This document shows, piece after piece, positions 30,614 to 50,540 of a stretch of 64,000 nucleotides of DNA. The notes below the pieces were generated by a model. That model was not told the DNA's origin and searched no databases. It saw only the letters and a program-made list of their open reading frames with translations. The stretch covers positions 31,908,101 through 31,972,100 of the forward strand of contig CM073321.1 of assembly GCA_037043015.1 (NCBI GenBank). Direction: 5' to 3'. A program made the translations under genes and the position numbers. Within the stretch, counting starts at the first letter, position 1. The number at the start of each line of letters is the position of its first letter. The stretch is from Bryum argenteum (Eukaryota; Streptophyta; Bryopsida; Bryales; Bryaceae).

Positions 30614-30947
30614 ACACAGAATGTGAAGAAGCAAATCAAAGGACCTAGATAGATTTCATGTACAATAAACTTGCTAGACTTCAGGGTTAAAATGAGCTTA
30701 GAGAATTTGCACACTGTCGACGAACGAATGCACAAAGATTAACTACAAGCGATTCAAATACATGTTCAACACTGTCGGTGCACATCGATCCCCGAAAAGC
30801 ACTAAACCCTAATTTCTCAGCCACAGCTCAACACACAGACTGCAAATTGCTACGCCACGACTCAACACACCAAGCAGCGAGCAAATTCTAACTACAAGTG
30901 CACTACACCAAACCCCAACTAATAAATCCATCTACTTGCAACAAACC
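30614..30947. promoter_or_regulatory. 5' flank of the ParB/methyltransferase-like relic
   Basis: About 330 bp between the first ATG of the minus-strand gene (30613) and the point where MULE transposase homology begins abruptly (about 30948). It is A/C-rich on the plus strand with no frame of note. It should contain the old promoter of the minus-strand gene, but I see no convincing TATA box. Confidence 0.3.
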
Positions 30948-32342
30948 CACAAACATCGTGTCAAAGTCGGAGATTATAGATGTGTACGGAAAAAAATAGA
31001 TGAGTTACTAGAAGAGCATGATGACTGTAACCTTCAAGCAACCGTTTCAAAAATAGTTATGGAAACGAGCAAAGACTTGCTAGGTAACTTACTTCTCTGT
31101 GACGAAGGTGACCCCGAAACCGGCAATCTTTCTCTCCAGCAGCTAGAACTTGTCTTTGAACAATGCAATGAGTTAAACTTCGCGAGCATGCGTAATCTTA
31201 TCTACACTTTGAAGTACTTGCGTAGGTATGGCATTCTCGATGAGATCACATAGCTCAGAGGTCTCTGCAACTGGGCGTATGTGCAACGCAACATGTTCCC
31301 TCGCCAAGGAGACGAATCCGAGAAAGTCTTCATTTTCAAGATGTCCGAGGTCGGCCTCGGCAGGGGTATTGACCTTGTTTGCCGTATGCAGCTTGGAGGA
31401 AATTTCTCTCACGCATGGATGATGTTTGACCATGTCCAATGCGTAACGGATTGGACCACCATGGCCTGCCACGTTTACGACTGACGTTATCAACGCAAAC
31501 TAACCATTGCATGCTGTGATTTCCAGTCTAAGACAAAGAAGCTCAACTCGTCTTCTGGAAGAACCTCAACCACGTCATTGCTAGGACCAGAGTACCCAAG
31601 CCGCAATTTCCAGGATTTAGGGCTGATAGTGCTAAGGCCAACTGGAACGATGTGCGCATCATCTACGGCTCTAGAAACCCTGATGTCTCCATGGAAGGCC
31701 GCGAATGGACATGTTACTTTTATTGGACGCAGTCCCTTGAGAAACATACGAAACAATACATCGTGCACGAATTGCAAGACCAGCACCGCATTCTCTATAA
31801 GCAGTACAAGGATGCACGGACCATGGAAGAGGCTGAGACGCGGTATAGGGCTATTAGAGCATGGTGGGCATTTTCAAAGGCCACCTCCAAAGTTGGTTAA
31901 GAACACTAATGTCATTGGCTTGCGTACTGGCACTTCAGGTACAAACAATGGGGTGGATTTATGGAACTAGTAAGTATACTATTACTTTGCAATATATTTG
32001 CTGATTACATGCACTAATGTTATGACACTAGCATCGAAATTGATAATTAATGTTTTTTTTAATTTAGATGATTATTTGATTTTGTATGTAGATATATATA
32101 TTGTGAATCTATACTTAGCAGGCAATTTTTGGCACCGTAAATAGCGCAATAGAAATCAAAATTCTGAAAAAACTTCTAATAAGTTCGTACATTGCAGGAT
32201 AAAAAATATTCGGCTGAAGAACTGGCAGAGATGCCTTCATGTAACCTTGGGGAGTCAATCCATAATAAATGGTTGCAAGCGCCTCGCAATAAGGGTAGCG
32301 ATCTCTATATTGCAGCCGTTGACAATTACATTCGAGCTTTCC
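30948..32342 (+). pseudogene. MULE transposase, 5'-truncated left half of a split copy
   Basis: From 'acccacaaacatc' onward this matches the transposases at 44495-48267 and 53168-55588, starting inside the HxGxHxHP part of the zinc finger. It covers the MULE core with stops and frame changes: a TAG near 31251, a TGA near 31482 and others. The intron is preserved, with donor GT at 31970 and acceptor AG at 32196-32197, and exon 2 begins 'DKKYSAEELAEMPSC'. The copy stops at 32342 inside 'IRAF' because the giant MULE inserted there. The reading resumes without loss at 48757-48766. The left end of this older element is missing. Confidence 0.85.
32334..32342. repeat. 9-bp target site duplication, left
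   Basis: GAGCTTTCC immediately precedes the left end of the giant MULE and is repeated exactly at 48757-48765. Nine base pairs is the usual target duplication of Mutator-like elements. A preceding C is also shared, but it can be assigned to the element end. Confidence 0.85.
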
Positions 32343-32391
32343 GGGGAATGCACGGGTGTGAGCGGAGAGCGGTGAGCGGTGAGCGGTGATT
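32343..32391 (+). repeat. left terminal inverted repeat of giant MULE
   Basis: Begins 'GGGGAATGCACGGG'. The next 21 nt (TGTGAGCGGAGAGCGGTGAG plus C) match the complement of the right end exactly. The outermost 14 nt match only partly. The inner part is a run of 7-nt GCGGTGA-type units. A T-run follows at about 32400. Confidence 0.75.
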
Positions 32392-34430
32392 GGCAGATTT
32401 TTTTTTTTTTTTTTCATGAAAGATTAAGACCCTATTACCACTCATTGCAAAAAAAATTTAAAAGTTAATAGCCCTATTACCATGAAATGGGTGGTTCTGA
32501 ATTTTTGAAATGGTCGTTTTTAGGCAAAAAAAAGAACCCAACACCGTGGATATAGGTCCTTTATCCATTTATTTTTATGGTACTGAGGTTATACAATATT
32601 TCATAAATTATCCACATTTGCAAGTTTAGATAAAAGTTAATTAAATTATAGGGTGGCATCATCATGTCTAACCAATACAATTAAAATCATATACAAAATA
32701 TATACCATAATTTGGGATGGCCGTTTAGGTAATCAATAAGTTTCATTTATCAATATTAAGATTTAGAGACTAATTAGGGCTGACGTCATCAATTTCCTAC
32801 TACACCTGTCAGAATTATATGTAAATGCTTCGGTTCATATAATCTAAAATTTATAACTACAGGTCGTCTTACCGTGTCACCTTGTAAGTTGTAAGGTGTA
32901 CAGAAAGACATTCACGTGGCATTGTAGTGGTCCGAGTTCGATTCTCCTCGGCCTCGTTTGAGCGTTGCAGCGCGTCCTAAAGCAGCTATCCTGAGCTATA
33001 CAATTACTGGACTATAGCCCCTACCAACATTGGCAAGCTTCAATCACTTCAATGGAAACAAAAAAACTTTTAGAGTGCAATGAGTTTAGTACTTAAACAT
33101 TTACATACATCGTTGCATTGATATTGGAGTTCAAAAAGTTACATCAAAATTAGGGCTGATGTCACCGTCAAAGGCATGCATGGCTTACATTACACTGTAC
33201 TGAGATACTTAGAGTAAACCTCAATTCCGTTAAAATAACACAATTCCTCTTGCCATATTACCAAAGCCATGTTGTGCCAATTTGGTCGCGTTTACGAAAC
33301 GTGCCATTATACCGGCATATTTTTGAACTCAAAATCTCAAAGATTTATGCTTGTAAAATGGCACGTTTTTTAATATCACCCACATCTTCCATAATATCAA
33401 CAAATTTCTGTAATATCATCAAAAATCCATAGTATCACACTATTTGATGAATTTGACCTTCAAATGCCGGTCCTCCTGCTCATGCTCATGGTCAATGACG
33501 GTGCTCAATGTCGGTGCTCATGCTCATGCTCATGCTCATGCTCAATGTCAGTGCTCATGCATTGTGATGTTGGACTTCATGACATTGGATGGGTTGTGTC
33601 AGAAGGAGTGTCGGTTTAGGGGTGAATACATTCCATGAAGTCGCAGCGATGTCGGTGCTCATTGTGATGTGCTAGTAGAGATGGGAGAAAAGGATGCGGT
33701 AGTGATTCGATTACTCACGAGAATGTAAGAAAATTGCAATGATGGTGTCTCTGAGAACTCACGTCCATTGGTCGGTGAGCAAAACGGCCCTTCCATTACA
33801 ATAACAGATCAAAGTACAGCTTCGAAATTAGCTCCATGAGCCGAAGTACAGCACCTGGCACCGGTCCCATGCGCAGGTGATGACAATGACATCGACTAGA
33901 TGTACAAGCAGGGAGTGACCAAAATCGGAGTCGAGGACCTTCAAACGAGCACTGCGGTGGTAACAAAATGAATCAATCACAACTTCCATGGAACGAGGGA
34001 GAGGAAAGAACCGGCCCTATGGGCACCAAGATCAAGCAGGTGGTTAGCATGGCACCGACAAACTAGCAGGAGGGACCGACAAACTAGCAGGAGGGACGAA
34101 GTGCAATGATGGTGTCCCTGAGAACTCACGTCCAACGTCATGAGAGTCTAAGGGAATTGTGTCGATTCTTGATTCGTTGGAATGTCGGTGCCGGTATAGA
34201 GTTCAGAAAAGCTGCCTTGTCGATGCCGATTCTGACGGCGCTGCTGGTGTGCCGATTGCCGATATTGACTGCACTGCCGGTGCTGATAAATCGGGTTGGT
34301 GAGGTTGGATGGAAAATCCAAAGTTCTCTCCTTATATACAAGAACGGAGGAAACGGGAGCCAGCATCTCAGAGCAGTTCGTGGGCCATCTCTCTTTTGAA
34401 ACTTCTCACTCTTGCACTGTTGTGGATCAA
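32392..34430. other. left subterminal region of giant MULE
   Basis: No gene is supported. It contains a simple repeat of 'catgct' / 'cggtgctcatg' type (33474-33560), a duplicated line 'gcaatgatggtgtc(c/t)ctgag' (33739 and 34103) and a tandem 'gacaaactagcaggaggga' (34058-34096). A TATA-like 'cttatata' lies at 34331, about 100 bp before the ADD gene. The stretch near 32910-32990 has a tRNA-like B-box word but does not fold as a tRNA. Confidence 0.5.
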
Positions 34431-34868
34431 ATGGCGGGGCATTCGGCCGATTTCGATCCCTTGTATTTGTATTCTTGCACTGCTTGTGGGGAGAAAAAAA
34501 TGCGTGCTTGTTTGTTGGAGCATCCTCGTCTCGGTGTTGGCATATGCATTTCGTGCAAACTTGTGTTGGACGACGTTGTATTCACGAAGAACGCCCAGTA
34601 CGATGATGAGCAATGCAATTGGTGTGGGGGAATTCAGTTTGTGATCCCGTGTGATTATTGTAACAAGGCGTGGTGTGCAGGGTGTATTGCACGAAACAAG
34701 GGAGACGACTACCTGAAGGACATAACGGGCAAGAATTGGGGGTGCTTCAGCTGCAACAAGTATGAGATAGTGCCTCTCCAGACGATTTGGGAAGATTTCG
34801 TGGAATTCACTTCAGAAGCTGGTGATCGCAGCGGCGGTGATTCTGGAAGTGATTCCAACTACGACTAG
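34431..34868 (+). CDS. ADD-domain (ATRX/DNMT3-type) zinc-finger protein
   Basis: A 145-aa protein made almost entirely of zinc-binding cysteines in the order of an ADD domain. A GATA-like finger (C16-x2-C19, C39-x2-C42 with 'LLEHPRLGVGICISC') is followed by a PHD-like finger (C62-x2-C65, C74-x2-C77, C82-x2-C85, C105-x2-C108, including 'CDYCNKAWCAGC'). ADD domains of ATRX and DNMT3 proteins read unmodified histone H3 tails; a similar chromatin-targeting role here is inference. The C-terminus is acidic and Ser/Gly-rich. The chosen start is the first ATG before the finger; the frame is open further upstream. It is convergent with the methyltransferase-like gene, 221 bp away. The frame has no breaks. 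The alternative is a general PHD/RING-like finger. Confidence 0.65.
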   Translation: MAGHSADFDPLYLYSCTACGEKKMRACLLEHPRLGVGICISCKLVLDDVVFTKNAQYDDEQCNWCGGIQFVIPCDYCNKAWCAGCIARNKGDDYLKDITGKNWGCFSCNKYEIVPLQTIWEDFVEFTSEAGDRSGGDSGSDSNYD

Positions 34869-35089
34869 TTGATTGCTAGTTATAGTAGTTGTATGGCCAC
34901 GAGTCACACTTGGTGTGAGAGTTGGCTTGAATGTGCTTGAATTTATTGAATACAAATTTCCGACTTATAAAAATATAAAACCGTATATATTTAAAAACAC
35001 ATATAGATAGTATATAAGTAATAGATCATGGGAAACTACGAATGTATGGCGCTACCATGTCCAGTACCTATCGGAAAACAAATCACACA

Positions 35090-38000
35090 CTAGGTAGACG
35101 GTGTAGTACCATTAAAGTGCTGATCACAATGATCTGCCTCAAAGTCTATAAACTTAAGCACACTCTTGCTATAACGTCGACATAGATTGTCAGACAAAAT
35201 GGGAGATGGAGCTTGAACAAACTCTTGAGCAAGTCGCTCAGCGTACGATGGTAGGGTGAATTTCGATGGAGGGCTCTTGTAGAGATGAGCGTTGCGAGTC
35301 AATCGCTCTTTTAGACCTGCGATCCTAAAATTGCAAAGAAAGTCAGTCCTACCGATTTGTAAGTGTGTAATTTAAAATTGAAAAAGAGAATACAAGATGG
35401 TAATACGCACCAATGAACTTTCGTAGTTTCTTCACGACCGGTTCGTCAGAGTCATAGTCTGCGGGGGGGGCTGATTCTCCACTTTCCTCATCACCGGAAG
35501 GTCCGTTCTTGTAATCCGCGAGTATACCATCAAAGATCTCTTCGTCAGGTTCCATAGCGATGAGGTGTCGGTTGGAGCGTGCGCAAGCAATCACAGATGC
35601 ACCTACAAAATCGGAAGCCCACGTTAAAAATGCGAAATGTAGAAACAAATTTTAATGTAGAGTCTACGGGAACTTTACCTGTACTTGCGCTCCAGTCGAA
35701 GACTATACCCCCCTCGTCCGTGAGACAATCGACGAAACATTGAATGAAGGAAGGGTCCTTCTCTCGTGAGCCTCGCCACGGCGTACCGTCCGGACGATAT
35801 CGCAAGGTTTCTTTCTCTGCAAAGTTACAGAGGTGGTCTTCCTCATCAGGTACGATTGACACACCCGCATATGCGTGTGCGACTTGCCGAGTTTGGAACT
35901 TCGAAACAAACTCTTTGCGAACATACACTTTGATATGGAAGCAGTGAGTCTGCAAAACACAAGTATAGATACATTAATATAGATGCAAAGAAGGCAATTA
36001 CCATGAATTGCGAAATTAAAAATTAGATTCTGATACGTACCTCTTTCGGTTTAGGTACGGTAGATGCCATAGGAAGGGGATTATATCCCCACCAGTCTTG
36101 AACAAGACGAAAACTATATGTATGGGACTCGGCATCGAGAGTACGCTTGATTCTGCGACATTTGGGATGCATCAGAAGAATGGCTTCAACGTTTGTCAAA
36201 TGATACGCGGAAAACACGAAGAGGCTCTCAAAGTAGGTTTTGTCACGCCGGTTCCAAGATGGAATTTCTATTGGAGACACACCCGGTACAGGCAAGTTCT
36301 CGGGAGCATCTGCAAAAATGAGATCAATCCCTGGATGCTTGGGTTCATACTCCATCGCCGAACACGGGTACTTGCGGTCTTTTCCAATCTGAGATACAAG
36401 TAAAAAATTAGAAAGTGGCTAATAGATTTAGAAGTACAAAACCTAAGAAGAAGTTCATGAAAGACAAAGGGAAGAAATAAAACCTTCTTGATGTGCTCGA
36501 CGATATCGAGGATTTGCGAATCCCATTTTGCAGTCTTCGATGACTGGTGAACCAAATCACCAATGTTGCCCTTCTCGAGATACATAGGTAAAGTCACCGA
36601 TATTTTAGACGACGAGCTGCTACCGATGTGATTGGGTTTTGGAAGAGGGCGTCTCGGGAATATTGGCTGGCTAAGGCGACGTGGGGACTGCTGCGAGTTG
36701 TGGTCAACGGTGAATGATTGAGGAGGGGACCCAACATTCGTAAGTCCACCTGTTGAAAGTTGAGTCAATCTTGCACCGCGTCGAATTGTATTGATTGCGG
36801 CTCCCGCTGAAGCCTGAGTCACATCAGCATCTTCAGGCCGTGCAATGTCTTCTCCGAAGGGAGCATTCTCTTCGGATTCTTGCTCAAGATCTACAACTGG
36901 CTCTGCAACAGCGTTGCGTCTCTTCCTGTTTGCACGAGACTTAGGCACTGCAACTGGTGAAGGAGTAGAGATTGGATCAGGTGCGACTGGTAAAATGGAG
37001 AGGTCGTCATCGTCATCGTCGTCAAAGTCCATCGGTGTAGAGTCAGCTGGGTTAGACGCAAGGTTTCGAAGAAGATGCTTCTCCTCCTTGTGCACGTAGT
37101 TGTCGTCACACTCCAGAAACCATCCATCGGTCGTCAATTGGGAGTTGGTAAACCGCTCTTGTTGGGCTGTGGAGAAAAAGCTGCGGGGATCATTCGTGAC
37201 TGAAATGTCCTCGAACTCCATTGGAATAGAGAACGAAGCTAATGCTCCCTTCGCAACGAGCTCTTGTTTCAAGTACCTACAAAAGTGTGAAAAAATCAGA
37301 TTGTGTGAATTGAACAAGTTGTACCAAATTTAATAATTTTGAAGAAAAAATTAAAAACATACCGGAATAAAAGTCGCTTAATTGTAACTTTGCCCCCGGT
37401 AATCTTTTGAAGATCCGAGCCTTTGATGAACTTTGGGCTTGCATTAGGACCAAGGTAGTTGTTGAATGCCTTGTCCCATAAGAGCAACCTCCACTTCTCT
37501 ACATACTCAGATGGCTTTAGGACAACACTAGACCACTCAATGGTGAGGTTTTCGTTGTCAATGAGGATTTGCAATTCAGTTTGAAGTGAATGCTCGAGCT
37601 GTAAAAAAAAAACAAGTTAATGATGAATATATCATATGAACTCAAACTTTTTCAACACGTAAAGAAAATTGAAGATACTTGTGCCCAAAGAGATGCGCGA
37701 TGCAGAAATGCCACCAGAGCTTTATCTTTCATTGGACGTTCATCAGGGAAGCGAAAAGATCGTCGAACATCGTCAGATGAGTTCCACCATTGGAGCCACT
37801 TTCCCTTGAAATCGCAATGAACATTGCTAGTGGCAACCATTTGTAAATGATCTATTGTCATATCGGGTTTCGTGTTCTTCTTTGAATGGGAATAAATCGC
37901 ACATGTAATTTACAAGTAAGAATCGAGTGATGAATCATGATCACAAATATAGTCATATGATACGTGAAAGGGGTGCATTTTCTACCTCCTTCGCAAATAC

Positions 38001-39368
38001 TTTCCCAAGTTTATGGTTTGCTACAAATACCATCTTGTCGAAGTTTTTGCCACGAATGGCCTTAATTTCTGCTTTGATCGCATTATCCATCGCACTCCAA
38101 ACTCCGGGTCCTGTTTGTTTCTCCTTTGGGATCAAGTGCGTAGTAATTCGTCTCGGCGTCATCGGAAGCCTTTGCTAATCTCCTCTGTACATAACATAAG
38201 AAGGATTAATAAAGAGGAAAAACCCAAATACAACGAATCACAGTACCTACCCATTACACTCAACTTACCGCATATAGGAATTTTACGAAAACTTCAATTG
38301 TTACAGGATACCAAGTATCTTTTTTGGCTTTGGCGTTCTTGCATATTCTGTAATCTTCTGGAGATATCAGATCCTTGAAATCCTCAAGTTTCAGTTTACC
38401 GAACTTCCTCATGCGCTGCAATTTTGCACACAACCCGTCTTCGACATGGTCATGTTCAGTTGACCTGTAGAGCGAACTCAAACATAAGAAACATTGAAGT
38501 TACTCAAAATACAAATAGAGCAAATAGGAAAATCAGTAAAGTACTCACCAATTTATGTCGTTCATAGCGTCAAGCAGGAGGTTGCTTTCTCCTCGTGCAT
38601 CAAGTACGATACAGTCCACGGAGATGTGCCACGAAGCTTCCATCTTATGGTACCTCTCAATGTGACGCATCCACGCCGTAACTCGGTGGTTACCTTCGTA
38701 CACGTAGAAGTACTTATTGCTCAAGTGTTGAAGATCCGGATCAGATAGCAACGTCTTCTCAAACTCTTCATTTGCAGATTTCCAAAGTGGATTCGTCCAC
38801 ACTGCATCTCCGGCGTCAACAATTTTCTCTCTCCCTTTCCTATCGAAGGGAGAAACGTACATGGCTCGGTCTCCTTCGCGATAGCCTTTGTTGAACTCAT
38901 TCTCCAATTTCCGTACGTCTTGTTCGGAGATAGGTCGAACCTTGGGATAACAAACAAGACGACACAATGGAATTAGCATGCGGGACTTTTTCACAGGTTT
39001 GTATCTCAACCTGTTGATGATCGCAATTGAATCACTTTTGTGAATCATTCTCATCTCGTTTGCACTCCAATCCGGATCTTTGTTTTCAAGATGAGGTGGC
39101 ATGTGGACGATTCCAACGGTGACACCTCCAGGCAAAGGGGTGTCATCATCCTCGGAAGGATACTCGTGACCATCTGGACCTTGCGTTGCTTGACTTGGAG
39201 ATCCATCATCGATGGAGTCTCTTCCGCATCAGATTCCGCAAGTCTCCAACGGATCCGCCACTATCAAGTAAGAGTTCGTCACCGCTCGGGAGATACCGTT
39301 TGTGGAAGATTAAGAAAAGGCCGGGTATCCACCGCATCTTGAAGAAGTTCGACTTGATCAAGATTCAT
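35090..39368 (-). CDS. ParB-like plus DNA methyltransferase-like protein (11 exons, 1136 aa)
   Basis: Exons on the minus strand: 39368-39283, 39220-38549, 38464-38269, 38174-37986, 37879-37679, 37598-37363, 37276-36484, 36388-36041, 35949-35679, 35602-35411, 35316-35090. All introns are GT-AG, phases agree at every junction, and the total is 3411 nt with no internal stop. Residues about 105-215 look ParB/Srx-like (MLIPLCRL ... VYEGNHRVTAW, GNHR near 205-208). Residues about 800-1050 look like an N6/N4-type amino-methyltransferase in the order motif IV then motif I: 'DLIFADAPEN' (818-821, DAPE in place of DPPY/W), then 'GGIVFDWSASTG' (FDWSASTG at 991-998), 'ASVIACARSNRHLIAMEPD'. The middle has a low-complexity acidic part. 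It may modify or bind DNA in the nucleus; the activity is unproven and the catalytic motif is altered. The 62-nt first intron is the least certain. Confidence 0.75.
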
Positions 39369-39505
39369 CCGCAATTCGAGAGCAAGTAATGCAGACCACA
39401 AAAAGAATAAGAATGTGTCAAAATAACAATATAAGAAAGATAATATATCATAATCGCTTTATAAGTAAGCATATGATAAACATATCATACACTATGAGGA
39501 TACAA

Positions 39506-41834
39506 TTAAACAAATTTTAACTTTGCGGCAAGACGCGGAGAACGACGTGGTGCACTTCTAGCTACTGCTTTCTCTTGGATACGTCTAGCTTTGGCATCAT
39601 TCTTTTTTATTTGCTTTGTAATCGCAACCCGATCAAAGTCAACACGATAAGTGTGACTGACAGGGGTGAGAGGAGGCGGAGTTCCCGGAACCGAGCTCAA
39701 AGCTACTACTAATCGACGGGACTCAACGTAAGCTAACACTTCGTCTCTCAAAAAGGAGAGGTCGCTATCTGCATCGGATTCCTTTTCTAAATCATCTGCA
39801 ACTGGCTTTAACTGATCCTGCAATACCACGCAAAACCATTAGTAAGCCAACTCTAAGAGAGCGTTCAGGAACAGGAAACTAAACAAATAAAATTTAACTC
39901 CATTATTTAACAAGAATGTCAATCCCATTTGAAACTAGAGCACCGAGAAGATCATAAGTACCACTTCAATGCCCGAAAGCTTGACAAAAATTTGCACGAA
40001 AATACAAAAAACACCAGTTCTGCTAAAAAACACATCATCACACACAGAGGGTGCCCAGACCCTCCCAGACTTTCGTCCACGAAAGTCTAACAAAATGCGT
40101 CAAGTACGCAAGATCCCAGACACACAGTAGCCCACAAGGACGGCAGTCCAACTACATTCGGAGGGTGTCGGCCCTTCGAGGCACAACATCTGCCATCCGA
40201 GGTCCACTATATTGGGAGGGTGCCGGCCCCTTCGAGGCACAACATCTGACATCACGAGGACCACAGCATCGGGAAGAGGCCAGCCCTTTCGAGGCACAAC
40301 ATCAGCCATCACGAGGACCACAGCATTGGGAGGTACCAACCCCCTTCGAGGCACAACATCTGTACATCACGAGGACCACTAAGGTTCGGGGATTGAGCCG
40401 CCATTCAAAGCGAAAGAATGAAAGACGAATTGAAAGAGAAAAAAAAATCAAACCTCCCGAGACCCTGCCAGACTTTCGTCCACGAAAGTCTAACACACCG
40501 AGGACCACTTCGGGAATTCGTGTCTCAAAAAGCTTAAGGAACGCAAGATCACAGACACACAGAAGCCCACGAGGGTGCCAGTCACACTGCATTCGGAGGG
40601 TGTCGGCCATTCGAGGCACAACATCAGCCATCACGAGGACCACAACATCGGGAAGAAGCCAGCCCCTTCAAGGCACAACATCAGCCATCACGAGGACCAC
40701 AGCATCGGGAAGAGGCCAGCCCCTTCGAGGCACAACATCAGCCATCACGAGGACCACAGCATCGGGAGGTACCAACCCCCTTCTTGGCACAACATCTGAA
40801 CAACACGAGGACCTCTGAGGTTCCGGGATTGAGCCGCCATTCACAGCGAAAGATTGAAAGAAGAATTGAAAGAGAAAAAAAAATCAAACCTCCCGAGACC
40901 CTGCCAGACTTTCGTCCACGAAAGTCTAACACACCGATGACCACTTCGGGAATTCGTGTCTCAAAAAGCTTAAGGTACGCAAGATCACAGACACACAGAA
41001 GCCCACGAGGGTGCCAGTCACACTGCATTCGGAGGGTGTCGGCCATTCGAGGCACAACATCAGCCATCACGAGGACCACAGCATCGGGAAGAGGCCAGCG
41101 CCTTCGAGGCACAACATCTGAACATCACGAGGACCTCTGAGGTTCGGGGATTGAGCCGCCATTCACAGCGAAAGAATGAAAGAGGAATTGAAACAAAAAA
41201 ACAAATCAAACCTCCTGAGCAACATCTGAACATCACGAGGACCACAGCATTGGGAGGGTGCCGACCCCCTTTGAGCCACAACATATCGACATCACGAGGA
41301 CCACTGAGGGCCGGGGATTCACCCAAATTCACATCGACTGAAACGCACAAGAATTGGAATTGGAATGTCGGCGTCCAATCACCTGTCTCTCAGCGGAGCG
41401 TCTGAGGGAGGCTGCCGACCCCGTAGAGAACAAAACACCGCTACAATACTAGGACCACTGCAAGGGCCAAAATTCCCCTAAAAATATTCACTCTCCAGAG
41501 AAGTCCCATGGACAGAAACAACGAACTCGTACTCTCTCGAGAAAGGACTGAGATTCCTCGGCATTCAGAAGTAGCAAATTCAGTACTTGCTGAAGTAGAT
41601 AATTCATACCTTGAAGCCCCTCGCAAACCACGCCTCCTTTTCTTCACGAGTCTTGAATTCTTTCCCTGGAGCGTATTGAAGAGCGTATTCCCTGTAAAAC
41701 TCAGAAAAGAGGCTTGTCGAGGAATCAGTACTCACATTGTCTCTTACCTTCTCCACGTCTTCTCCCTCTCGCTGCATTTTGATCTCCTCTTCTCGCTGCA
41801 CTGTGATCTCCTCACCAACTCCCAAGTTTGCCAT
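39506..41834 (-). CDS. small basic nuclear-type protein, two exons, 178 aa
   Basis: Exon 1 is 41834-41610 (starting MANLGVGEEIT, donor 'caag|gtatga') and exon 2 is 39817-39506 (acceptor 'attgcag', starting DQLKPVADD). Both are phase 0 with an open total of 178 codons. The N-terminal half is rich in Glu/Arg with 'FSEFYREYALQYAPG'. The C-terminal 40 residues are strongly basic, ending '...RSAPRRSPRLAAKLKFV', like a nuclear targeting or DNA-contact tail. I recognise no family. The intron (1.8 kb) is filled by a tandem array. A possible upstream exon lies around 42045-41870 but does not join cleanly. Same strand as the methyltransferase-like gene, 137 bp upstream of its start. Confidence 0.5.
40040..41345. 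repeat. higher-order tandem array in an intron
   Basis: A basic unit of about 57-60 bp ('cacgaggaccacagcatcggg' split by 'ttcgaggcacaacatc') is repeated many times. On top of this, longer blocks recur ('gggattgagccgccattca', 'cagactttcgtccacgaaag', 'cgagggtgccagtcacac') with a spacing of about 420 bp. It lies entirely within the intron of the small basic gene. Long frames through it are repeat artefacts. Confidence 0.8.
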
Positions 41835-42282
41835 TGTAGCACCTTCCTTCAAACCGAACTGCACATAGACAGGAAAGGAGTTGTTGATAGCAACAAGTAC
41901 GTCGTATTATTGCAGCGGAAGCATCTTCACTAATTGCGTCCATTCTATTCTGGTAGCTACAATCCAAATTGTCACTCTTTCTGTCAGGCATCTCTCCTGA
42001 CAGCTTTTCACAACTGTCGACTGCCAAGCTTATCTGAGGCTTCATCGGCGGCTCCTCATTCAATTTCTAGGGTTTTGCGCGGCGCACAAAGGAGGACCTC
42101 CCATTTCAGAAATTACTCAGGATCATTTGACGAACGTGCCGGCATCACCTGGTTAAATTGAGCAATGCGCCGCAAAGGCAGTTGATTTGACAGGGAAGAA
42201 GCCTCCGGAGAGGGAGCGGAGAGAGACGGACAGCGACAAGCTCACGACGCGGTCACCGCTCACCGCTGAACGGCGGGGCGGG

Positions 42283-42592
42283 GGCTTCTCACTCCGGCCC
42301 GGGGGTTCTCGCCCTGGTACCCGCTGGCGATGCGGCCTGGGCCGGGGGTCTCACCCCGGTACCCGCCGGCGATGCTGCCCGGGCCGGGGGTCTCACCCCG
42401 GTACCCGCCGGCGCTGCTGCCCGGGCCGGGGGTCTCACCCTGGTACCCGCCGGCGCTGCTGCCCGGAGCGGAAGTTCCACCCCGGTACCCGCCGGCGCTG
42501 CTGCCTGGGCCGGGGGTCTCACCCCGGTACCCGCCGGTGCTGCTGCCCGGGCCGGGGGTCTCACCCCGGTACCCGTCGGCGCTTCGTATACC
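42283..42592. repeat. GC-rich 42-bp minisatellite, about 7 copies
   Basis: Unit of 'ggtacccgccggcgctgctg' followed by 'cccgggccgggggtctcac', repeated every 42 bp with few changes. Because 42 is a multiple of three, all frames stay open and give periodic 14-aa peptides, which I do not regard as genes. It is directly preceded at 42250-42275 by a MULE-end-like 'tcaccgctcaccgct'. Confidence 0.85.
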
Positions 42593-42770
42593 CGTACCCG
42601 CTTGGGGATATACCCTTGGATCCTTTATGTTAGAATATTTTCCCTCTTTTATTCACGAGACTTAACACTTGTACCGCATTCAAAACTCACATGATTTACA
42701 AGTACGAAAACCAATCAATCATTTATTCAATATTAGGTCACATTTTCTTAGTGCAAACATAATCACGTCT

Positions 42771-43983
42771 CTAATCTATCGAGGTGAACGCTAAAATGTG
42801 CCCTGACTCCTTCATGACACTTAGGAAAAACGTCATATCATTTACCTCCTCCTCTATAATTCGATCGATGGTATCTTCATTCTCTCCAACATCTACCAAC
42901 GCCTTCTTTTCGTCCATTTGCTCCTCGTTCTCATCACTGTCCTTCAAGTTTTTGTCCGAATTGTCAAAACTTATTTCATCTACCTCATCGTCCTTGGGAC
43001 CTTCATCGGCATCAACCTTGTAAACAAACATTCAACTCAGTAAACTCAAACTGCAATAACTAAATAGCACAAACTCAAGAATACTAGCGTACCTGCTTCT
43101 TGGAATCCTGTGCAACCTCATCACCTCCTATGTAATAACATAGAGAAACGCTGGATGTCGATCCACTTCTACTGCGCTCTTGCTCATCTATGAATCTCTT
43201 GAATTTGTTCTCATCTTCACCATTGTCTTTCTCGTTAATCTCGATCACTGTGTCAAGATTGATCGACCGCATTTTCAGATTCCTCCTATAATGGGGCCCG
43301 AGTTCATCATCGTTCAAATCAAAATCAGAAGGGCCTCTGTAACAGGGCAAGAACTAGATTTTTGTGTGTGCTAGAAAAGTAGATAGATAGTTGAAACCAT
43401 TTTAGGAGTTTTTAGAAAATTTTAGAATTTGAGGTAGATGGCCTATGTGGGACCCACCATAGAAGCTTCGAGAAGGTGGGGCCCACCTCTAGAGTCTTCT
43501 AGAAGGGCGGTTATCTAGGTGGGGCCCACCTCTAGGACCTTCCGGAAAGTTCCATAGTGGGGCCCGCCATTGGAACATTCTAGAAAGTTCCAAGGGCGGT
43601 TAGGCAGAGTATAAATAGAACTGGCCGGGGCCATTTGGAGGCATTCGGTCAGGTACGCCTTAGTCCCTCTCTCTCTCAGTAAAGTTTGGTTTGTACTTTG
43701 CTTCTTTAGTTCTGCTTTGTTCTGTTCTGTTCAAGTCTATTCGGTCTTGTTTAGCCCGGTTTTCTCAGATCTTGTTAGGTTAGCAGTGTTTGAGTTGTGA
43801 CCAAAGAGAGAATTCAGTCCCGTTTCAGCCTCCCTCATCTCCACTTGACCTAGACGCACCCACCTTTCGCAATGCACTTCGTTTGCGCGCTTTCGTAATA
43901 CTAAAACGAGTACCCCCTCTTCTCTTCTTCTTCTTAGGCACACTGTCACTGGATCTCTCCGACCCCAAGCTCACCGCGTCCAT
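42771..43983 (-). pseudogene. small KKKKRRGGT accessory gene, interrupted by a solo LTR
   Basis: It reads from ATG 43983: a Ser-rich start, the basic block 'PKKKKRRGGTRFSITKARK', then 'SRSSGDE'. The frame is broken by a 490-bp LTR at 43338-43827 and resumes at 43332 with 'FDLNDDELG', 'RRNLKMRSINLDTV' and an acidic stretch. Donor 'aagcag|gtacgc' at 43093 joins to 43016 (acceptor 'ttacaag'), ending at 42771 after a very acidic tail. The same gene without the LTR lies at 52209-52619 beside another MULE copy ('KKKKRRGGTKFTNSKALK', 'RRTIKMQTLNLDSV'). In both cases it is divergent from the transposase with about 0.5 kb between. No known family is recognised; it is a candidate second MULE protein. 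Confidence 0.65.
43338..43827. mobile_element. 490-bp solo LTR
   Basis: Starts 'TGTAACAGGGC', ends 'AGTCCCGTTTCA', and is flanked by an exact 5-bp duplication GCCTC (43333-43337 and 43828-43832). Inside it has several GGGCCCAC-type words, a TATAAATA box at 43610-43617 and a pyrimidine-rich leader, as expected of an LTR promoter on the plus strand. There is no internal coding region or second LTR, so it is the product of recombination between two LTRs, or a very short element. It disrupts the KKKKRRGGT gene. Confidence 0.85.
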
Positions 43984-44236
43984 AATGTCAAGACTCTGAA
44001 CAGAAGCACACTGATCGTACCGTCTCAATACCTTACCAACTCGAACTAAACGAACGAAAGAAAAGACCATCTCGTCGTCCTACTCCTATTTAAACAAAGT
44101 TCACAAGCCGCCCCTAACGTAAATTGTGCAGTTTATCATAAATTATCGCAACAAATATGATGGCTTGTGGTCTGCCAACTGTGACAGTCTCTGACATGAT
44201 ATGCTAATCTAATTTTTGAATTTGCATACAAATGCT

Positions 44237-44263
44237 CTGACAATGCCGGCCGCCGTCACTTTT
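44237..44263. promoter_or_regulatory. conserved motif in the divergent MULE promoter
   Basis: 'ctgacaatg' - 5 nt - 'cgccgtcacttt' lies between the KKKKRRGGT gene and the transposase. It is repeated at 52847-52872 in the same position beside the other MULE copy, although most of the intergenic DNA differs. It is a candidate shared control or transposase-binding site. Confidence 0.5.
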
Positions 44264-44494
44264 CCAATTTCGTGATCACAAGATTTTTGCACTTTAATGA
44301 CACTAATTACAATTGCCTAATGGTATACCATATTCACTCTTCCTCATGGTAATTGTCTGGTTTAATCACTCTCCCCACCTTATTCACTTCATTACGAGAT
44401 TTTAGTACAAATTCTCTCTTATAAACGGTATCGTATCTAGTGTGTATCCTTTCCTTACATCCACTGTCGATGCTCGTTGGTCCTCTCGGACATC

Positions 44495-47400
44495 ATGGCT
44501 TCCTCGTCCACTGAACCCATTGCCGCAGACATTGTTGAGATTCTGTCACAAGGAGCACTTGTTCCCATTTGCATGGCCGTAGGGCTTGAAGGTGTCGTAG
44601 ACATCAGTGCATCGTAGCTTGGAATTCGATTCGGCTACGATGCATCTTCCCTGTGGTTAGAGAGAGAAGTTCTAGAACCTGATACTAATCATGTTCAGTA
44701 CTCCATGGTCGTAGATCCAATCATCCTAGAGAACAATACTACAATCTGGAAGCTTCGAGCTGGAAAGTATCGCCTCTACGGCTTGACAGAGTCCGTCATG
44801 AACGCCTCAACAGTTCTCCTGACCCCACGTAGTTCTTCTACTATCTCCACGGTTGCTCCAGCTCTTACTCGTGTCAAGGTCGAACCAGGTCTCAAAGTCA
44901 CCTTTGACATATCGGATTCATCAGAAGACGAGAAGAAGTCTCCTCTGCAACCATGTCGTCTGACGTCTGATATTCCATTGCCACCTCTTGTTAGGGATAA
45001 CTATCTAAGAGCCACCCCTCCTTCTTTAGTTTCATCGCAAATTGTGAGACCCAAAAAAATTCTTCCATCTCTCTGCAACCTCGCTAGTATGCCCTGTAGC
45101 AAGACTCTCCTCAAAAAAATTGATTTCAAAACCATCCGCACCGTCAACGTATCTTTCTTGCCTCCGTCATTCAATGGCGATGTACTCTTCATCTTTCCGC
45201 CAACTCTGCCGTCTGCAACTCACAAGGTTGCGAAGTCCATGGAGGGGATGGATAAACGGTACGACGGTCATGTGTGGACTAGGACGATAACCACCAACAT
45301 CAGCAATACGCAAGGGTTGTCTTTCCGATACTCCAACTGTGTAGGACATCTACAGTGCCACAACCCAGACTGCGACTTCTTGCAACGACCTGATCGAGTC
45401 GCTGGAGTAAACGACGTGGAGTTTGAAGGCATTACCAAAGACCCATTCTCGGTAGGCGGATCGCCCCCACCCACCTCGACGTTGGTCTGTAAGCTTTGCA
45501 AACAACCTCATGTTTGTGTTGCGCCTTGTTTTGCGAAGATCTTTTACGTAGTTGGAGAGGATTGTCAGGAGCGTGCATGTGTCCATATAGGAACGCACGA
45601 GCACCCTGTCAAAGTTGGAGATTATAGATGTGTAAGGAAAAAAATAGATGAGTTACTAGAAGAGCATGTTGACCGTAACCCTCAAGCAACCGTTTCCAAA
45701 ATAGTTATGGAAACCAGCAAAGACTTGTTAGGTAACTTACTTCTCCGTGACGAAGGTGACCCCGAAACCGGCAATCTTTCTCTTCAGCAGCTAGAACCTG
45801 TCTTTGAAAAATGCAAAGAGTTAAACTCTCCAAGTATGCGGAATCGTATCTACACTTTCAAGTACTTGCGTAGGTATGGCATTCTCGATGGGATCACAAA
45901 GCTCAGAGGTCTCAGCAATTGGGCATATGTGCAACGCAACATGTTCCCTGGCCAAGGCGACGAATCCGAGAAAGTCTTCATATTCAAGATGTCGGAGGTC
46001 GGCTCCGGAAGCGGTGTTGATCTGGTTCGCCGAATGCAGCCTGGAGGAAATCTCTCCCACGCATGGATGATGTTTGACCATGTCAAACGCGTTACGGATT
46101 GGACCACCATGGCCTGCCATGTGTACGACTCACGTTACCAACGCATTCTAACCATTGCATGCTGTGATTTCCAATCAGAGGACAAAGATGCTCAACTCGT
46201 CTTCTGGAAGAACCTTAATCATGTGATGGCCAGGAACGGAGTACCCAAGCCGCAGTTCCAAGGTTTTATGGCTGATAGTGCTCAAGCCAATTGGAACGCT
46301 GTGCGCATCATCTACGGCTCTGGGAACCCTGTCATCCCCATGGAAGGTCGGGAACGGACATGTTATTTCCATTGGACGCAGTCTCTTGAGAAACATACGA
46401 AACAATACATTGTGCCCGAATTGCAAGGCCAACACCGGATTCTCTGTAAGCAGTATAAGGATGCGCGCACCATGGAAGAGGCTGAGACCCGATATTGGGC
46501 TATAAGAGCGTGGTGGGCATCCTCGAAGGCCACCTCCGAAGTTGGTTTAGAACACTTGGGTCATTGGCTTGCGTACTGGCACTTTAGATACAGACAATGG
46601 GGTGGATTTATGGAACTAGTAAGCGTACTATTTCTTTGCAATAATTCTGCTGATTTCATGCTCTATGGTAGCTTCTGTAATATTATGACAAACCAAAAGA
46701 AATTAACAGTTCTTGTTTATATAGTAATAGTTGATTTTTATGTTCATTTATATACTTCCAATCTGTATTAAGTACAAATTCAAATTAGTAATAAAGGCCT
46801 AATACGTTTGATCATTGCAGGAAAAAAAATATTCGGCAGAAGAACTCGCAGAGATGCCTTCATGTAATCTTGCGGAGTCAATCCACAACAAGTGGTTGCA
46901 AGCGTCTGGCAATAAGGGTAGGGATCTCTACGTCGCAGCCGTTGACGACTACGTTCAGGCATTCCTCCAAGTGGTCGGCTACCACCAATTCAACAAAGGC
47001 GGTGCAAGTGGATCAGGACCATCCGTAGAAGAACTTCGTCAGCGTCTTCATACCGCTCAACGTCGGGCTAATCGATCCGGCAATCCATCTTGCCTCAACA
47101 AGGCCGTTATGGACTTCCTTGAAGCAGAAGCTTACTGTACGCGTGACGCCCACTTGGAGGGGGCAGAGATTTTTGGTTCTAGTAAACGTAAGGCTGATTT
47201 TCCCATTGGTGCTGAAGATGAAACTCATCGACCTGACACCGTGAGTTACTCACGCCCTCGAATAGGCAGAAGAGTCACACGAGCTCTTGCTGAGAATCTC
47301 AGTCCTATCCACGAAGAGGATGAAGTTCAAGAGCAACCGCTGGAACCGTCCTCTTCTCCAGGACCCAGTATTCAGCGCGTCATTGCTATCCAAGAGACGA

Positions 47401-48267
47401 GAGTGAATGAGCGTCTATGGCACATTGCTCGTTTGAAAGAATCCTCATCCAAGGCTTGTTGGGGTATTATGGCTAAGACCAGGAAGAAATGCAAATCCCG
47501 CATTGTCCAAAACAGAAAGGCGACCGCAGCTCCAACTTACACCGGAGTATGGCAGCGTCCTCAAGAGGGTCCAAAAAAAACTGATCAGTTTTTCTTTTGT
47601 CCAGACGACATTGAGCGTTGTGTGAAGGGCAGTCGTCGTAAATGGATTGAGCCGTTCTCTCGGAAACAAGGTCGACCGCCTATTCCCTCTATTTGGCCCG
47701 TGAAGATCGGGACCAATCTGACAGTGGACGAGATTGAGGCGTTGGAGAATGCGGGTTTTCGGCTCCCACAAAAGGAACGCCTTCCTCTCAACCGCACATT
47801 CAATACTTCTGCGCCACCGAGAGACTTGTCACATATTCCCGTCTTTGGACAAGGCGATCATCAGACCCAAATCACGCAGTCTAAAGTTCTTCGACGCATC
47901 AAGGCCGTGACTCAAGCACATGAAGAACATTGATTCACTTCGTTCCATGGAGGCAAAAATACTCGAGGTGACCATGATACCACAACCTGGTTTTGGATGT
48001 ATCGTTGCTTGGAGTCGATTCGAGTCTATCTATAAACTATCTCTTAGTGAGAACCCCGAGTGTTCTTGCCCGGTGTTCAAAAAAACCATAGCTAAGTTAG
48101 GACGAAAAGGCGAACCGTATAGACATTGCAAGCACCTATACTTCGTGTTAGTATTGGTATGCAAATTTGATATTGATAGAGACCTCTTCATCCACGCGCC
48201 CACCCCCAGTTTCAACAAGGTGAAAAACATTCTAGAGAGGGGAATCCTAGACCAAGTTAGAGAGTAG
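44495..48267 (+). pseudogene. MULE transposase of the giant element (WRKY/GCM-like finger, MULE core, SWIM)
   Basis: Start ATG 44495. Exon 1 ends 46618; the intron is 46619-46820 (GT-AG, phase 0); exon 2 runs to 48267; about 1190 codons. The N-terminal 260 residues are Ser-rich. Residues about 285-375 carry a zinc-binding set of WRKY/GCM type (CHNPDCDFLQR ... HIGTHEHPVK). The DDE core of MULE type includes 'MMFDHVKRV', 'ILTIACCDFQSEDKDAQ', 'GFMADSAQANWNAVRIIY' and 'RTCYFHWTQS' (C-x2-H). The C-terminus has a SWIM finger (CSCPVFKK ... RHCKHL). Breaks: TAG at 44615-44617, where the relative at 53168 has Trp, and a 2-nt deletion near 47912 just before SWIM, seen by comparison with 49690. The rest is open. 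It cuts and inserts DNA in autonomous relatives; this copy is inactive as written. Confidence 0.88.
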
Positions 48268-48707
48268 ACTACCTCAAGGTCACATTACGTAAACCAAAGA
48301 TCCACATCTATCCATTCTACATGTTATCCCCTCAATCGTCGTGTGTTTTTCACACGTTATTTATTTTGATCTCAGCGTTTTACTATAATCAATAAATGTA
48401 TCCATATTTACCAAAAATTATGATTTGCTATACAAACTTGGACTGTTGATTTCACAGTTATAATATTCTAGTCTACTCTGTAAAATTCGTAAATATCTCT
48501 TCATGTTTGAAGAACGTGGTTTAAGTCCACCGAATTTCAGAAAATTTAGCCTTATATCCACGGGTTTAGGAGCACAAAACCACGGTAATAAGTGAAGAAT
48601 ATTCGAATATTCTTGAGAATATTCCTGAAATAAATAGTAAAATATAATTTTTAGAAATTTGTTTACTAAAAAAACCAAATCAGCGCTCTAAATCCTGAAA
48701 TTTGATG
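48268..48707. other. 3' non-coding part of giant MULE
   Basis: AT-rich, no gene. It aligns over its length with 50054-50490 behind the older MULE copy (shared 'cacacgttattta', 'tgatttcacagttataa', 'gtggtttaagtccac', 'accacggtaataagt'), so this stretch is part of the element rather than host flank. Confidence 0.8.
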
Positions 48708-48765
48708 GCTCAATGCTCACTGCTCACCGCTCTCCGCTCACACCGTAGCCACGTCCGAGCTTTCC
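48708..48765 (-). repeat. right terminal inverted repeat of giant MULE and right target duplication
   Basis: Read inward on the minus strand from 48756: 'GGACGTGGCTACGG', then a 21-nt block identical to the left end. GAGCTTTCC at 48757-48765 duplicates 32334-32342 exactly. Confidence 0.82.
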
Positions 48766-50053
48766 TCCAAGTAGTTGGCTGTCATCAATTCAACAAAGGC
48801 GGAGCAAGTGGTTCTCGACCATCCGTAGAAGAACTTCGTGAGCGTCTTTACACCGCCCAACGTCGAGCTAATCGATCCGGCAATCCATCTTGCCTCAACA
48901 AGGCAGTTATAGACTTCTCTGAAGCAGAAGCTTACTATACGCGTGATGCCCACTTGGAATGGGCAGAGGTTTTTGGTTCCAAGAAACGTAAGGCTCATGT
49001 TCCTATTGCTGCTAAAGATGAAACTCATCGACGTGACACCGTGAGCTACTCACGTCCTCAAATAGGGAGAAGGGTCACACGAGCTCGTGTTGAGAATCTG
49101 AGTATTATCCACGAAGAAGATGAAGTTCAGGAGCAACCGCTGGAACCGTCCTCTTCTCCTGGACCTGGTATTCAGCGCGTCACTGCTGTCGGAGAGACGA
49201 GAGTGAATGAGCGGCTATGGCACATTGCTCGTTTGAAGGAATCCTCATCCAAGGCATGTTGGAGTAATATAGCTAAGACTAGGAAGAGATGCGAATCCCG
49301 CATTGTCCAAAATGGGAAGGCTACCGCAGCTCCAACTTACAAAGGAACATGGCAGCCTCCTCAACGTGCTAGCAAAATAGTAGATGAATTCTACTTGTGT
49401 CTTGTTGTGTGAAGGGTAGTCGTCATAAATAGATTGAGCCGTTCTCTCGGAAACAAGGTCGACCGCCTATTCCCTTAGTTTAGCCCGTGAAGATTGGGAC
49501 TAATCTGACACGTGACGAAATAGAGGCCTTGGAGAATGGGGGCTTTTGGCTCCCACAAAAGGCTTCCACTCAACCGCACATTCAATACTGCTGCCCTACC
49601 GCGAGACTTGTTACATATTCCAGTGCCGGACAAGGTTGATGTTGACCCCAAAATCAAGAAAGTCTAAACTTCTTCGATGCATCAAGGCTGTGACTCCGAA
49701 GCACATGAAGAACATTGATTCAGCTCGTTCCATGGAGGCAAAAATATTCAAGGTGACCGTGATACCACAACTTGGTTTTGTACGTATTGTCACTTTGTAG
49801 TCGGATTCAGAGTCTATCTATAAACTATCTCTTAGTGAGAACCTTGAGTGTTCTTGCCCGGTGTTCAAAAACCATTACTAAGTTAGGACGAAAAGGCAAA
49901 CCGTATAGACATTGCAAGCACCTACACTTCGTGTTGGTATTGGTATGCAAATTTGATATCGATAGAGACCTCTTCATCCACGCGCCCACCTTCAGTTTCA
50001 ACGAGGTGAAAATGATTCCGGAGAGGGGAATTCTAGACCAAATTACACAGTAG
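48766..50053 (+). pseudogene. MULE transposase, right half of the split older copy
   Basis: Direct continuation of 30948-32342 in the same codon ('IRAF' | 'LQVVGCHQFNKGG'). It is colinear with exon 2 of the giant-MULE transposase: 'RRANRSGNPSCLNKA', 'RVNERLWHIARLKESS', then the SWIM region. Several frame changes and stops are present (49410, near 49560, 49797, near 49870). It retains the bases missing from the giant-MULE copy before the SWIM domain ('actccgaagcac'). Confidence 0.88.
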
Positions 50054-50490
50054 ACTATCTAAAGGTCATATTACTTAAACCAACATCCGCATCCACCCGT
50101 TCTAAATGTTAGCCCTGTAATCATGTGTTTCACACGTTATTTACTTATTTATCATTGTTTTCACAACTTTACGGAAGTCAATAAATGTATTCCTATTGAC
50201 AACAACTAATGAATTTTTACACAACTTCGACTTCTGATTTCACAGTTATAAGATACTAGTCTTGTCTGTAAAATACAAGAATGTCTTTTAAGGTTTGCCG
50301 CATGTGGTTTAAGTCCACTCAATTTCAGAATTTTTAGCCTTATCGCCACGGGTTCAGGAACACCAAACCACGGTAATAAGTCAAGAATATTCCCATATTC
50401 TTGAGGATATTAAAAAAATAGTGAAATATTATTTTTAGAAATTGTTTTACTAAAAATATCAATTCACCGCTCAAATTGCTGAAATTTGAT

Positions 50491-50540
50491 AGCTCACTGC
50501 TCACTGCTCACCGCTCTCTCCTCACACCATAGCTACGTCC
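50491..50540 (-). repeat. right terminal inverted repeat of the older MULE
   Basis: 'gctcactgctcaccgctc' ... 'ccatagctacgtcc' parallels 48708-48756. The following bases 'attctaata' would be its target duplication, but no left partner is found in the window, consistent with loss of its left end. Confidence 0.75.

Follow-up and report, generated by a model that had tools for sequence, protein, structure and literature searches.

A window of 64,000 nucleotides from the moss Bryum argenteum (GCA_037043015.1, contig CM073321.1, positions 31,908,101 to 31,972,100) holds, at 32343..48756, a transposon resembling Mutator-like elements (MULEs), in which a transposase lies together with genes of chromatin and DNA-modification type. 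The locus raises the question of whether these genes are the element's own equipment and, if so, what they might do for it. The element belongs to a family of large DNA transposons with terminal inverted repeats (TIRs), whose core is a transposase plus a ParB-like/methyltransferase-fold fusion (ParB-MT), joined in many copies by an ADD-domain reader. Most likely, ParB-MT and ADD form a transposon-encoded self-recognition or counter-silencing module, acting like VANDAL/VANC but unrelated to it; this function we infer.

A mobile unit and its family

Contig C1, one of the 25 that make up a genome of 258.8 Mb, holds the element. When the ends shared with many copies were used, its limits were exactly 32343-48756, because the 9-bp target duplication GAGCTTTCC was perfect on both sides, at 32334..32342 and 48757..48765. 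The 35-base TIR arms, at 32355..32389 (+ strand; the end starts at 32343) and 48710..48744 (- strand; the end closes at 48756), were 91% complementary. A 23-base core of the end motif occurred with at most one mismatch at 248 sites in the genome and the reversed control at none, indicating that the inverted ends did not arise by chance. When the flanks were joined, they aligned gap-free across the junction (478/478 bases, 86%) to the related transposase exon of the element itself. The element was inserted within an uninterrupted transposase exon of an older related transposon, whose left part (transposase, 30944..32342, +) and right part with right end (48766..50540, +) now lie on either side. 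The 16.4-kb unit with inverted ends and an exact 9-bp duplication, proposed in a first-pass annotation together with the empty-site comparison, was borne out; the unit is real and has moved in the past. Read on the + strand, it has an order that we call type I, beginning with the left end and ADD, followed by ParB-MT, two small genes and the transposase, and closing with the right end.

The left end (1001 bases) and the right end (806 bases) were searched against the genome, and the best 40 of 932 and the best 40 of 613 candidates were used, respectively. Ten copies picked by left-end likeness were fetched as 18-kb stretches; ParB-MT was present in all ten (interrupted in c9) and ADD in nine, and the gene order was the same in copies elsewhere in the genome. 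Because these ten had been selected by their left ends, 21 elements including the window's were paired by ends independently of cargo, drawing on the lists for the left end, the right end and the end motif. Target duplications of 9-10 bp matched in 19/21 (at least 8 of 9 bases, one-base slip allowed) and were perfect in 15/21, while mismatched end pairings matched in 2/420, both from one reciprocal recombinant pair. Methyltransferase (MT) sequence was found in 21/21 and ADD in 14/21; one element, C3:417k, had degenerate ADD pieces only and none was listed in six. Since all 21 resemble the window element at their ends, they do not sample the superfamily at random. The first-pass annotation had named in advance, as its refutation, a cargo that never recurs between these ends; the cargo recurred. 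Element sizes in the family were about 11-23 kb among those sized.

Positions of the genes relative to the ends and to each other were compared in best-scoring lists (150 of 983 MT candidates, 144 of 1242 transposase candidates, and 89 of 150 scored ADD rows after fragments and a second ADD family, about 40% identical, were dropped). MT lay within 30 kb on the expected strand and side at 20/40 right ends, against 1 on the wrong strand and 1 on the mirror side, and at 29/40 left ends (0 wrong strand, 1 mirror). The transposase had the expected geometry at 24/40 right ends (0 wrong strand, 0 mirror), ADD at 12/40 right ends (1 and 1) and 22/40 left ends (0 and 0), and MT relative to the transposase in 53/150 rows (1 and 0). 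Among the 89 ADD rows, 34 had MT at most 16 kb away, always on the opposite strand and in two arrangements only, with MT directly downstream (19) or 5-15 kb upstream (15); shifted controls gave 3, 1, 2 and 6 of 89.

The transposase is encoded by exon 1 (44495..46618, +) and exon 2 (46821..48267, +), the latter with an NLAES motif and a C-terminal SWIM-like CxC..CxH. Exon 2 is a single 483-residue frame ending in the SWIM-like finger in copy c10 and two frames in the window, so the window's SWIM reading frame belongs to the transposase. Pfam SWIM, a zinc finger of many MULE groups, matched this part at E=0.11 only, under its cut-off. Residues D504, D553, C582 and H585 were conserved in a 49-row alignment and, with NLAES, are compatible with the pattern of MULE DDE transposases. 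The Pfam MULE domain was found in 0/49 exon-1 sequences at E<=0.1 and, at E<=1, in neither one exon 2 nor four pieces of a distant relative. Public proteins contained at least 132 relatives (37-77% identity among the 120 listed). The duplications (8-11 bp in MULEs, 9-10 bp here), the TIRs (present in most MULE groups) and the motifs fit and Pfam MULE is absent, so the transposase first annotated as MULE is better termed MULE-like, a candidate member by anatomy and not by Pfam.

Three further observations concern the family as a whole. Contig C1 (44.09 Mb, 17% of the genome) held 84/150 MT, 52/89 ADD and 69/144 transposase rows and 24/40 right ends of the best-scoring lists; it is possibly a sex chromosome or one with little recombination. 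The two end-paired elements without a matching duplication, C3:417k and C3:783k (G000 C3:417617-443777 and C3:783289-800137), lie about 366 kb apart and each bears the other's duplication (GACGCAAGT and GGGCGGCGG), a swap that marks recombination between them. Copy c8 (L021) was 96-99% like the window in its MT exons, 90% in the ParB exon and 81-88% in the small genes; mosaic copies of this kind probably came from gene conversion between subfamilies.

A histone-tail reader and a methyltransferase fold

The ADD gene (34431..34868, +) is a single exon encoding 145 residues. In phmmer, residues 13-121 of its protein matched the ATRX ADD domain, a GATA-like plus a PHD-like finger, at E=7.3e-15, all cysteines of the set being aligned; the protein also matched Pfam ADD_ATRX at E=6e-4, under its cut-off. 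Judged by this alignment its ADD identity is secure, in agreement with its first description as an ADD-type finger gene and histone-tail reader. The DEQC patch was retained. At the position of the aromatic pair that makes up the H3K9me3 pocket of ATRX the moss protein has L/V, and we therefore expect it to bind H3K4me0 only. At L030:5942-9999 a second ADD gene (about 40% identical) adjoins a distant transposase (36% identical) that likewise has a SWIM-like part; ADD may therefore have accompanied the superfamily for a long time.

ParB-MT (35093..39367, -) was modelled with 10 exons, one fewer than first annotated; the gene itself and its methyltransferase fold stood, and the ParB assignment became tentative. 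Open models of 1161 and 1171 residues were obtained in 2/10 sequences tried, the window being among the eight that failed, with frame changes near its start. PHROG gave a methyltransferase match at E=2.5e-5. Residues 460-699 of protein P0001 (about 240) aligned to a phage adenine methyltransferase at E=0.03 in the collection search and E=3e-9 pairwise. All 5/5 sequences matched Pfam N6_N4_Mtase (PF01555) under its cut-off (best E=0.0024), and profile comparison to PF01555 aligned the motif I region alone, at 87% probability. Motif IV precedes motif I, the permuted order of N6_N4 DNA methyltransferases.

Both motifs were altered. In the motif IV exon (36041..36388, -), moss IDLIIADAPEG stood opposite phage IDMILCDLPYG and LDAVITDPPYN, with DAPE for DPPY. 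In the motif I exon (35680..35949, -), moss FDWSASTG stood opposite phage LDNTAGSGT and FDPFMGSGS, and the first glycine of the S-adenosylmethionine (SAM) loop was missing. Neither a catalytic (D/N/S)PP(Y/F/W) nor a SAM loop FxGxG was found in ParB-MT. Over 26 tblastn rows the tetrapeptide read DAPE in 19, HAPE in 2, DASE in 2, DALE in 1 and DVPE in 1, plus one out-of-frame piece; the final residue was E in 25/26 and Y in none. Relatives lay on three chromosomes of the moss Ceratodon, DAPE was present in 3/3 Ceratodon proteins, and tetrapeptide and SAM loop were altered both there and in the fetched copies. Conservation of the fold despite changes in the catalytic and SAM motifs favours a pseudo-enzyme; ParB-MT is probably a conserved pseudo-methyltransferase, and altered specificity instead of inactivity is possible. 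Upstream, part of exon 1 (38551..39102, -) carries a ParB/Srx-like stretch, YEGNHRVTAW, found in 10/14 rows, with a PHROG ParB-like match at E=0.0037; its GNHRVTA motif, comparable to the GxxRxxA phosphate motif of ParB/Srx N-terminal domains, tentatively suggests a ParB-like domain.

Constraint was estimated from the ratio of nonsynonymous to synonymous substitution (dN/dS). The open ParB-MT copies c5 and c10 gave dN 0.057, dS 0.38 and a ratio of 0.15, with 0.05 in the ParB part, 0.11 in the methyltransferase part and 0.60 in the N-terminal 90 residues. The window's ParB/Srx-like stretch gave 0.06-0.09 against c8, c9, c10 and c11, and MT exon 7 gave 0.20 against c10. ADD of the window gave 0.15 and 0.17 against c8 and c11. 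The transposase gave 0.085 and 0.15 for exon 1 and 0.11 and 0.16 for exon 2, against c10 and c8 respectively. Between subfamilies, ParB-MT and ADD are thus under purifying selection about as strong as that on the transposase. The cargo had been described as full-length, which held for other copies; the window copy has decayed, with a stop in transposase exon 1 before 44618 (seen against other copies) and a frame change ahead of the SWIM part. Because the genes are full-length in other copies, recur within the same ends and are under selection, they belong to the equipment of the element itself and are no debris of the Pack-MULE kind, a distinction already drawn by the first-pass annotation. 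Pack-MULEs hold captured host fragments and no element genes, whereas full-length selected genes were found here, with a transposase in type I.

Elements without a transposase and the competing explanations

A short subfamily (type II, the arrangement with MT 5-15 kb upstream of ADD) has lost the transposase and kept ParB-MT and ADD. Its interior was read in three elements. Element t2 (C1:5.81 Mb), read whole, spanned about 11.5 kb between matching ends and contained ParB-MT, small gene B and ADD, with the transposase reduced to a 77-residue remnant. C1:18.27 and C4:11.27, covered from MT exon 7 almost to the right end and over some 600 bases at either end, contained ParB, small gene B and ADD, with the transposase a 19-residue scrap or absent; their duplications were exact over 10 bases and 9/10, respectively. 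A fourth candidate by its ends, C1:27.62, had an exact 10-base duplication. In three further candidates no right end turned up where one had been predicted, and in one of them neither end did. Between type II and the window, dN/dS was 0.18-0.23 for ADD and 0.21-0.33 for MT exon 7; within type II, MT exon 7 gave 0.27 (11 sequences of each gene in both comparisons). Since the module is kept without a transposase, it probably favours those copies that carry its genes or are neighbours of its source, and does not serve only as a transposase helper. The existence of transposase-free carriers speaks for a benefit of the module to them and is no proof of counter-silencing.

We tentatively prefer, at a little short of an even chance, the explanation that ParB-MT and ADD make up a chromatin module of the element's own, by which family copies are recognised and kept transcribable or mobile. 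The ADD protein would dock on unmodified H3K4 tails in silent chromatin, and the ParB-like part would load onto element DNA. The methyltransferase fold, with its degenerate motifs, would read DNA or pair with a host enzyme instead of acting as a methylase. Copies encoding the module, or lying beside its source, would thereby be favoured.

Several results weigh against this explanation. The ParB assignment is weak: beyond the PHROG match and the GNHRVTA motif nothing backs it, so it stays tentative. The ParB part had no Pfam match, no PDB sequence match and no tblastn match in phages or plasmids, and both structure models were poor (mean predicted local distance difference test scores of 47 and 31). 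ADD was missing in 6/21 elements and degenerate in 1, and is therefore not essential. The only type II element read end to end, t2, had mismatched duplications (4/9), and ADD within type II gave a dN/dS of 0.59. MT exon 7 gave 0.45 against c11 and 0.85 against c8, from few changes in copies that look mosaic. Among copies 97-99% alike, dN/dS scattered near or above 1 for several exons, indicating that young copies, and most copies, decay.

A bolder version of the chromatin-module explanation, which we hold possible at about one chance in three, is that one lineage of giant moss transposons evolved a chromatin self-recognition complex, a ParB-like DNA clamp fused to a catalytically dead, reading methyltransferase, plus an ADD protein by which silent chromatin would be found. 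Transposase-less elements would persist by the complex alone, and the essential cargo would be counter-silencing, not transposition.

Somewhat less likely, ParB-MT and ADD are transposition helpers that work with the transposase, for example a ParB-like clamp pairing the ends or ADD-steered insertion into particular chromatin, comparable to MURB-type or target-choosing proteins; transposase-less carriers would then be young or locally supplied. The cargo always occurs with the ends and is selected like the transposase, and the one insertion seen, the window's, sits inside an older relative. However, pure helpers acting in trans should decay in type II, where the genes are kept at a dN/dS of about 0.2 against type I, and ADD is dispensable, 7/21 elements being without an intact-looking one.

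Self-marking of element DNA, suggested in the first-pass annotation, is weakened, as it needs an active methyltransferase. It would make ParB-MT an amino-methyltransferase placing N6-methyladenine or N4-methylcytosine on element DNA, as with N4CMT of bdelloid rotifers, a eukaryotic precedent with a chromatin reader (PMC8885841, in excerpt). The fold itself, seen in the phage enzyme alignment, the PHROG match and the sub-cut-off Pfam matches, agrees with this. However, DPPY reads DAPE in 19/26 rows and 3/3 Ceratodon proteins, the SAM loop is without its first glycine, and in N4CMT the change of SPPY to APPA abolishes activity (PMC8885841, in excerpt). We regard self-marking as improbable.

That the genes were taken up a single time from the host or a foreign source and are carried without use, as in Pack-MULEs, is disfavoured and very improbable. 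Gene capture is frequent in MULEs (PMC13317346, in excerpt), and a block of about 1.7 kb with ADD is either there or missing as a whole (copy c10). However, idle passengers fit poorly with purifying selection between subfamilies, a full-length multi-exon gene and ParB-MT relatives on three Ceratodon chromosomes. An accident of nesting, with unrelated genes between unrelated ends, might be suspected in a region full of nested relatives, and is refuted for the family by matching duplications (19/21 against 2/420 in mismatched pairs) and by the same gene order in copies elsewhere.

Other features and comparison with known systems

The two small charged genes, first annotated as basic, were both present. 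Small gene A (39509..41906, -) has acidic as well as basic parts and two probable exons, with limits set by eye, around a repeat-filled intron. Small gene B (42774..44079, -) has the basic start KKKKRRGG and is split in the window copy by an insertion like a solo long terminal repeat (43338..43827; TG...CA, 5-bp duplication GCCTC), absent in 6/6 fetched copies covering the site. Constraint on the small genes was weaker (dN/dS 0.3-0.8). The intron of small gene A contained tandem repeats of about 436 bases (40050-41400), and an array of 42-base units lay at 42260-42595; repeat length varied among copies. A dense array of the palindromic motif ACAGTTTAGCTCGACTCGAGCTAAACTGT was seen at L074:2685-3486 and L075:8133-9320. 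A further related transposase stretch (53277-55583, 73% DNA identity) is part of additional nested elements in the window.

Transposon resistance to silencing is known from few systems, and this abundant moss family offers a compact, conserved and testable set of one histone reader and one predicted DNA-binding pseudo-enzyme. In the natural transposase-less subfamily, chromatin function is uncoupled from transposition, so that the benefit of the cargo to its carriers becomes directly testable. If the proposal is true, eukaryotes would here use a bacterial-type modification fold in a new way, as a dead but conserved methyltransferase carried by a transposon. No DNA transposon combining ADD with a ParB-like/pseudo-methyltransferase came up in the literature searched.

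Parts of the arrangement have known counterparts. Pack-MULEs likewise have MULE-like ends around extra genes, but the moss cargo is full-length, recurrent and selected, not fragmentary. Retrotransposons of dinoflagellates and charophytes also carry DNA methyltransferase genes (PMC5890265); these encode C5-cytosine enzymes. A phage ParB-CTPase fused to an N6_N4 methyltransferase combines the same fold pair in one protein (PMC12704722, in excerpt); it is prokaryotic/viral, whereas the moss gene lies in a eukaryotic transposon and has introns, an altered catalytic motif and a tentative ParB part. N4CMT couples the N6_N4_MTase fold to a histone reader, but it belongs to the host, is joined to a chromodomain and has an intact SPPY (PMC8885841, in excerpt), whereas the moss protein is transposon-borne, reads DAPE and has its reader in a separate gene.

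Other counterparts are MULE groups with extra domains, namely Rehavkus (PHD finger), MULE-Phytophthora_1 (SET), MUDR (PMD) and FAR1 (PMC6446971, in excerpt). They share 9-bp duplications and additional chromatin-type domains or reading frames with the moss family, and have SWIM-type fingers where the moss transposase has a SWIM-like one; however, the excerpts describe no ADD, ParB or DNA methyltransferase in them, and the moss family is unmatched by Pfam MULE. The strings 'methyltransferase', 'moss' and 'bryophyt' do not occur in the text of PMC6446971. Similar in proposed function are the VANDALs of Arabidopsis and eudicots, whose VANC/KIU accessory genes act on the chromatin of related copies and give a MULE precedent for counter-silencing (PMC13317346, in excerpt). 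No VANC-type domain was found in Pfam scans of the transposase, SWIM part, ADD and ParB-MT. VANDALs are described as non-TIR elements in the same excerpts, whereas the moss elements have TIRs, ADD and a methyltransferase fold, and in them we only infer anti-silencing. The two would be alike as MULE-type elements with accessory genes for the chromatin state of related copies.

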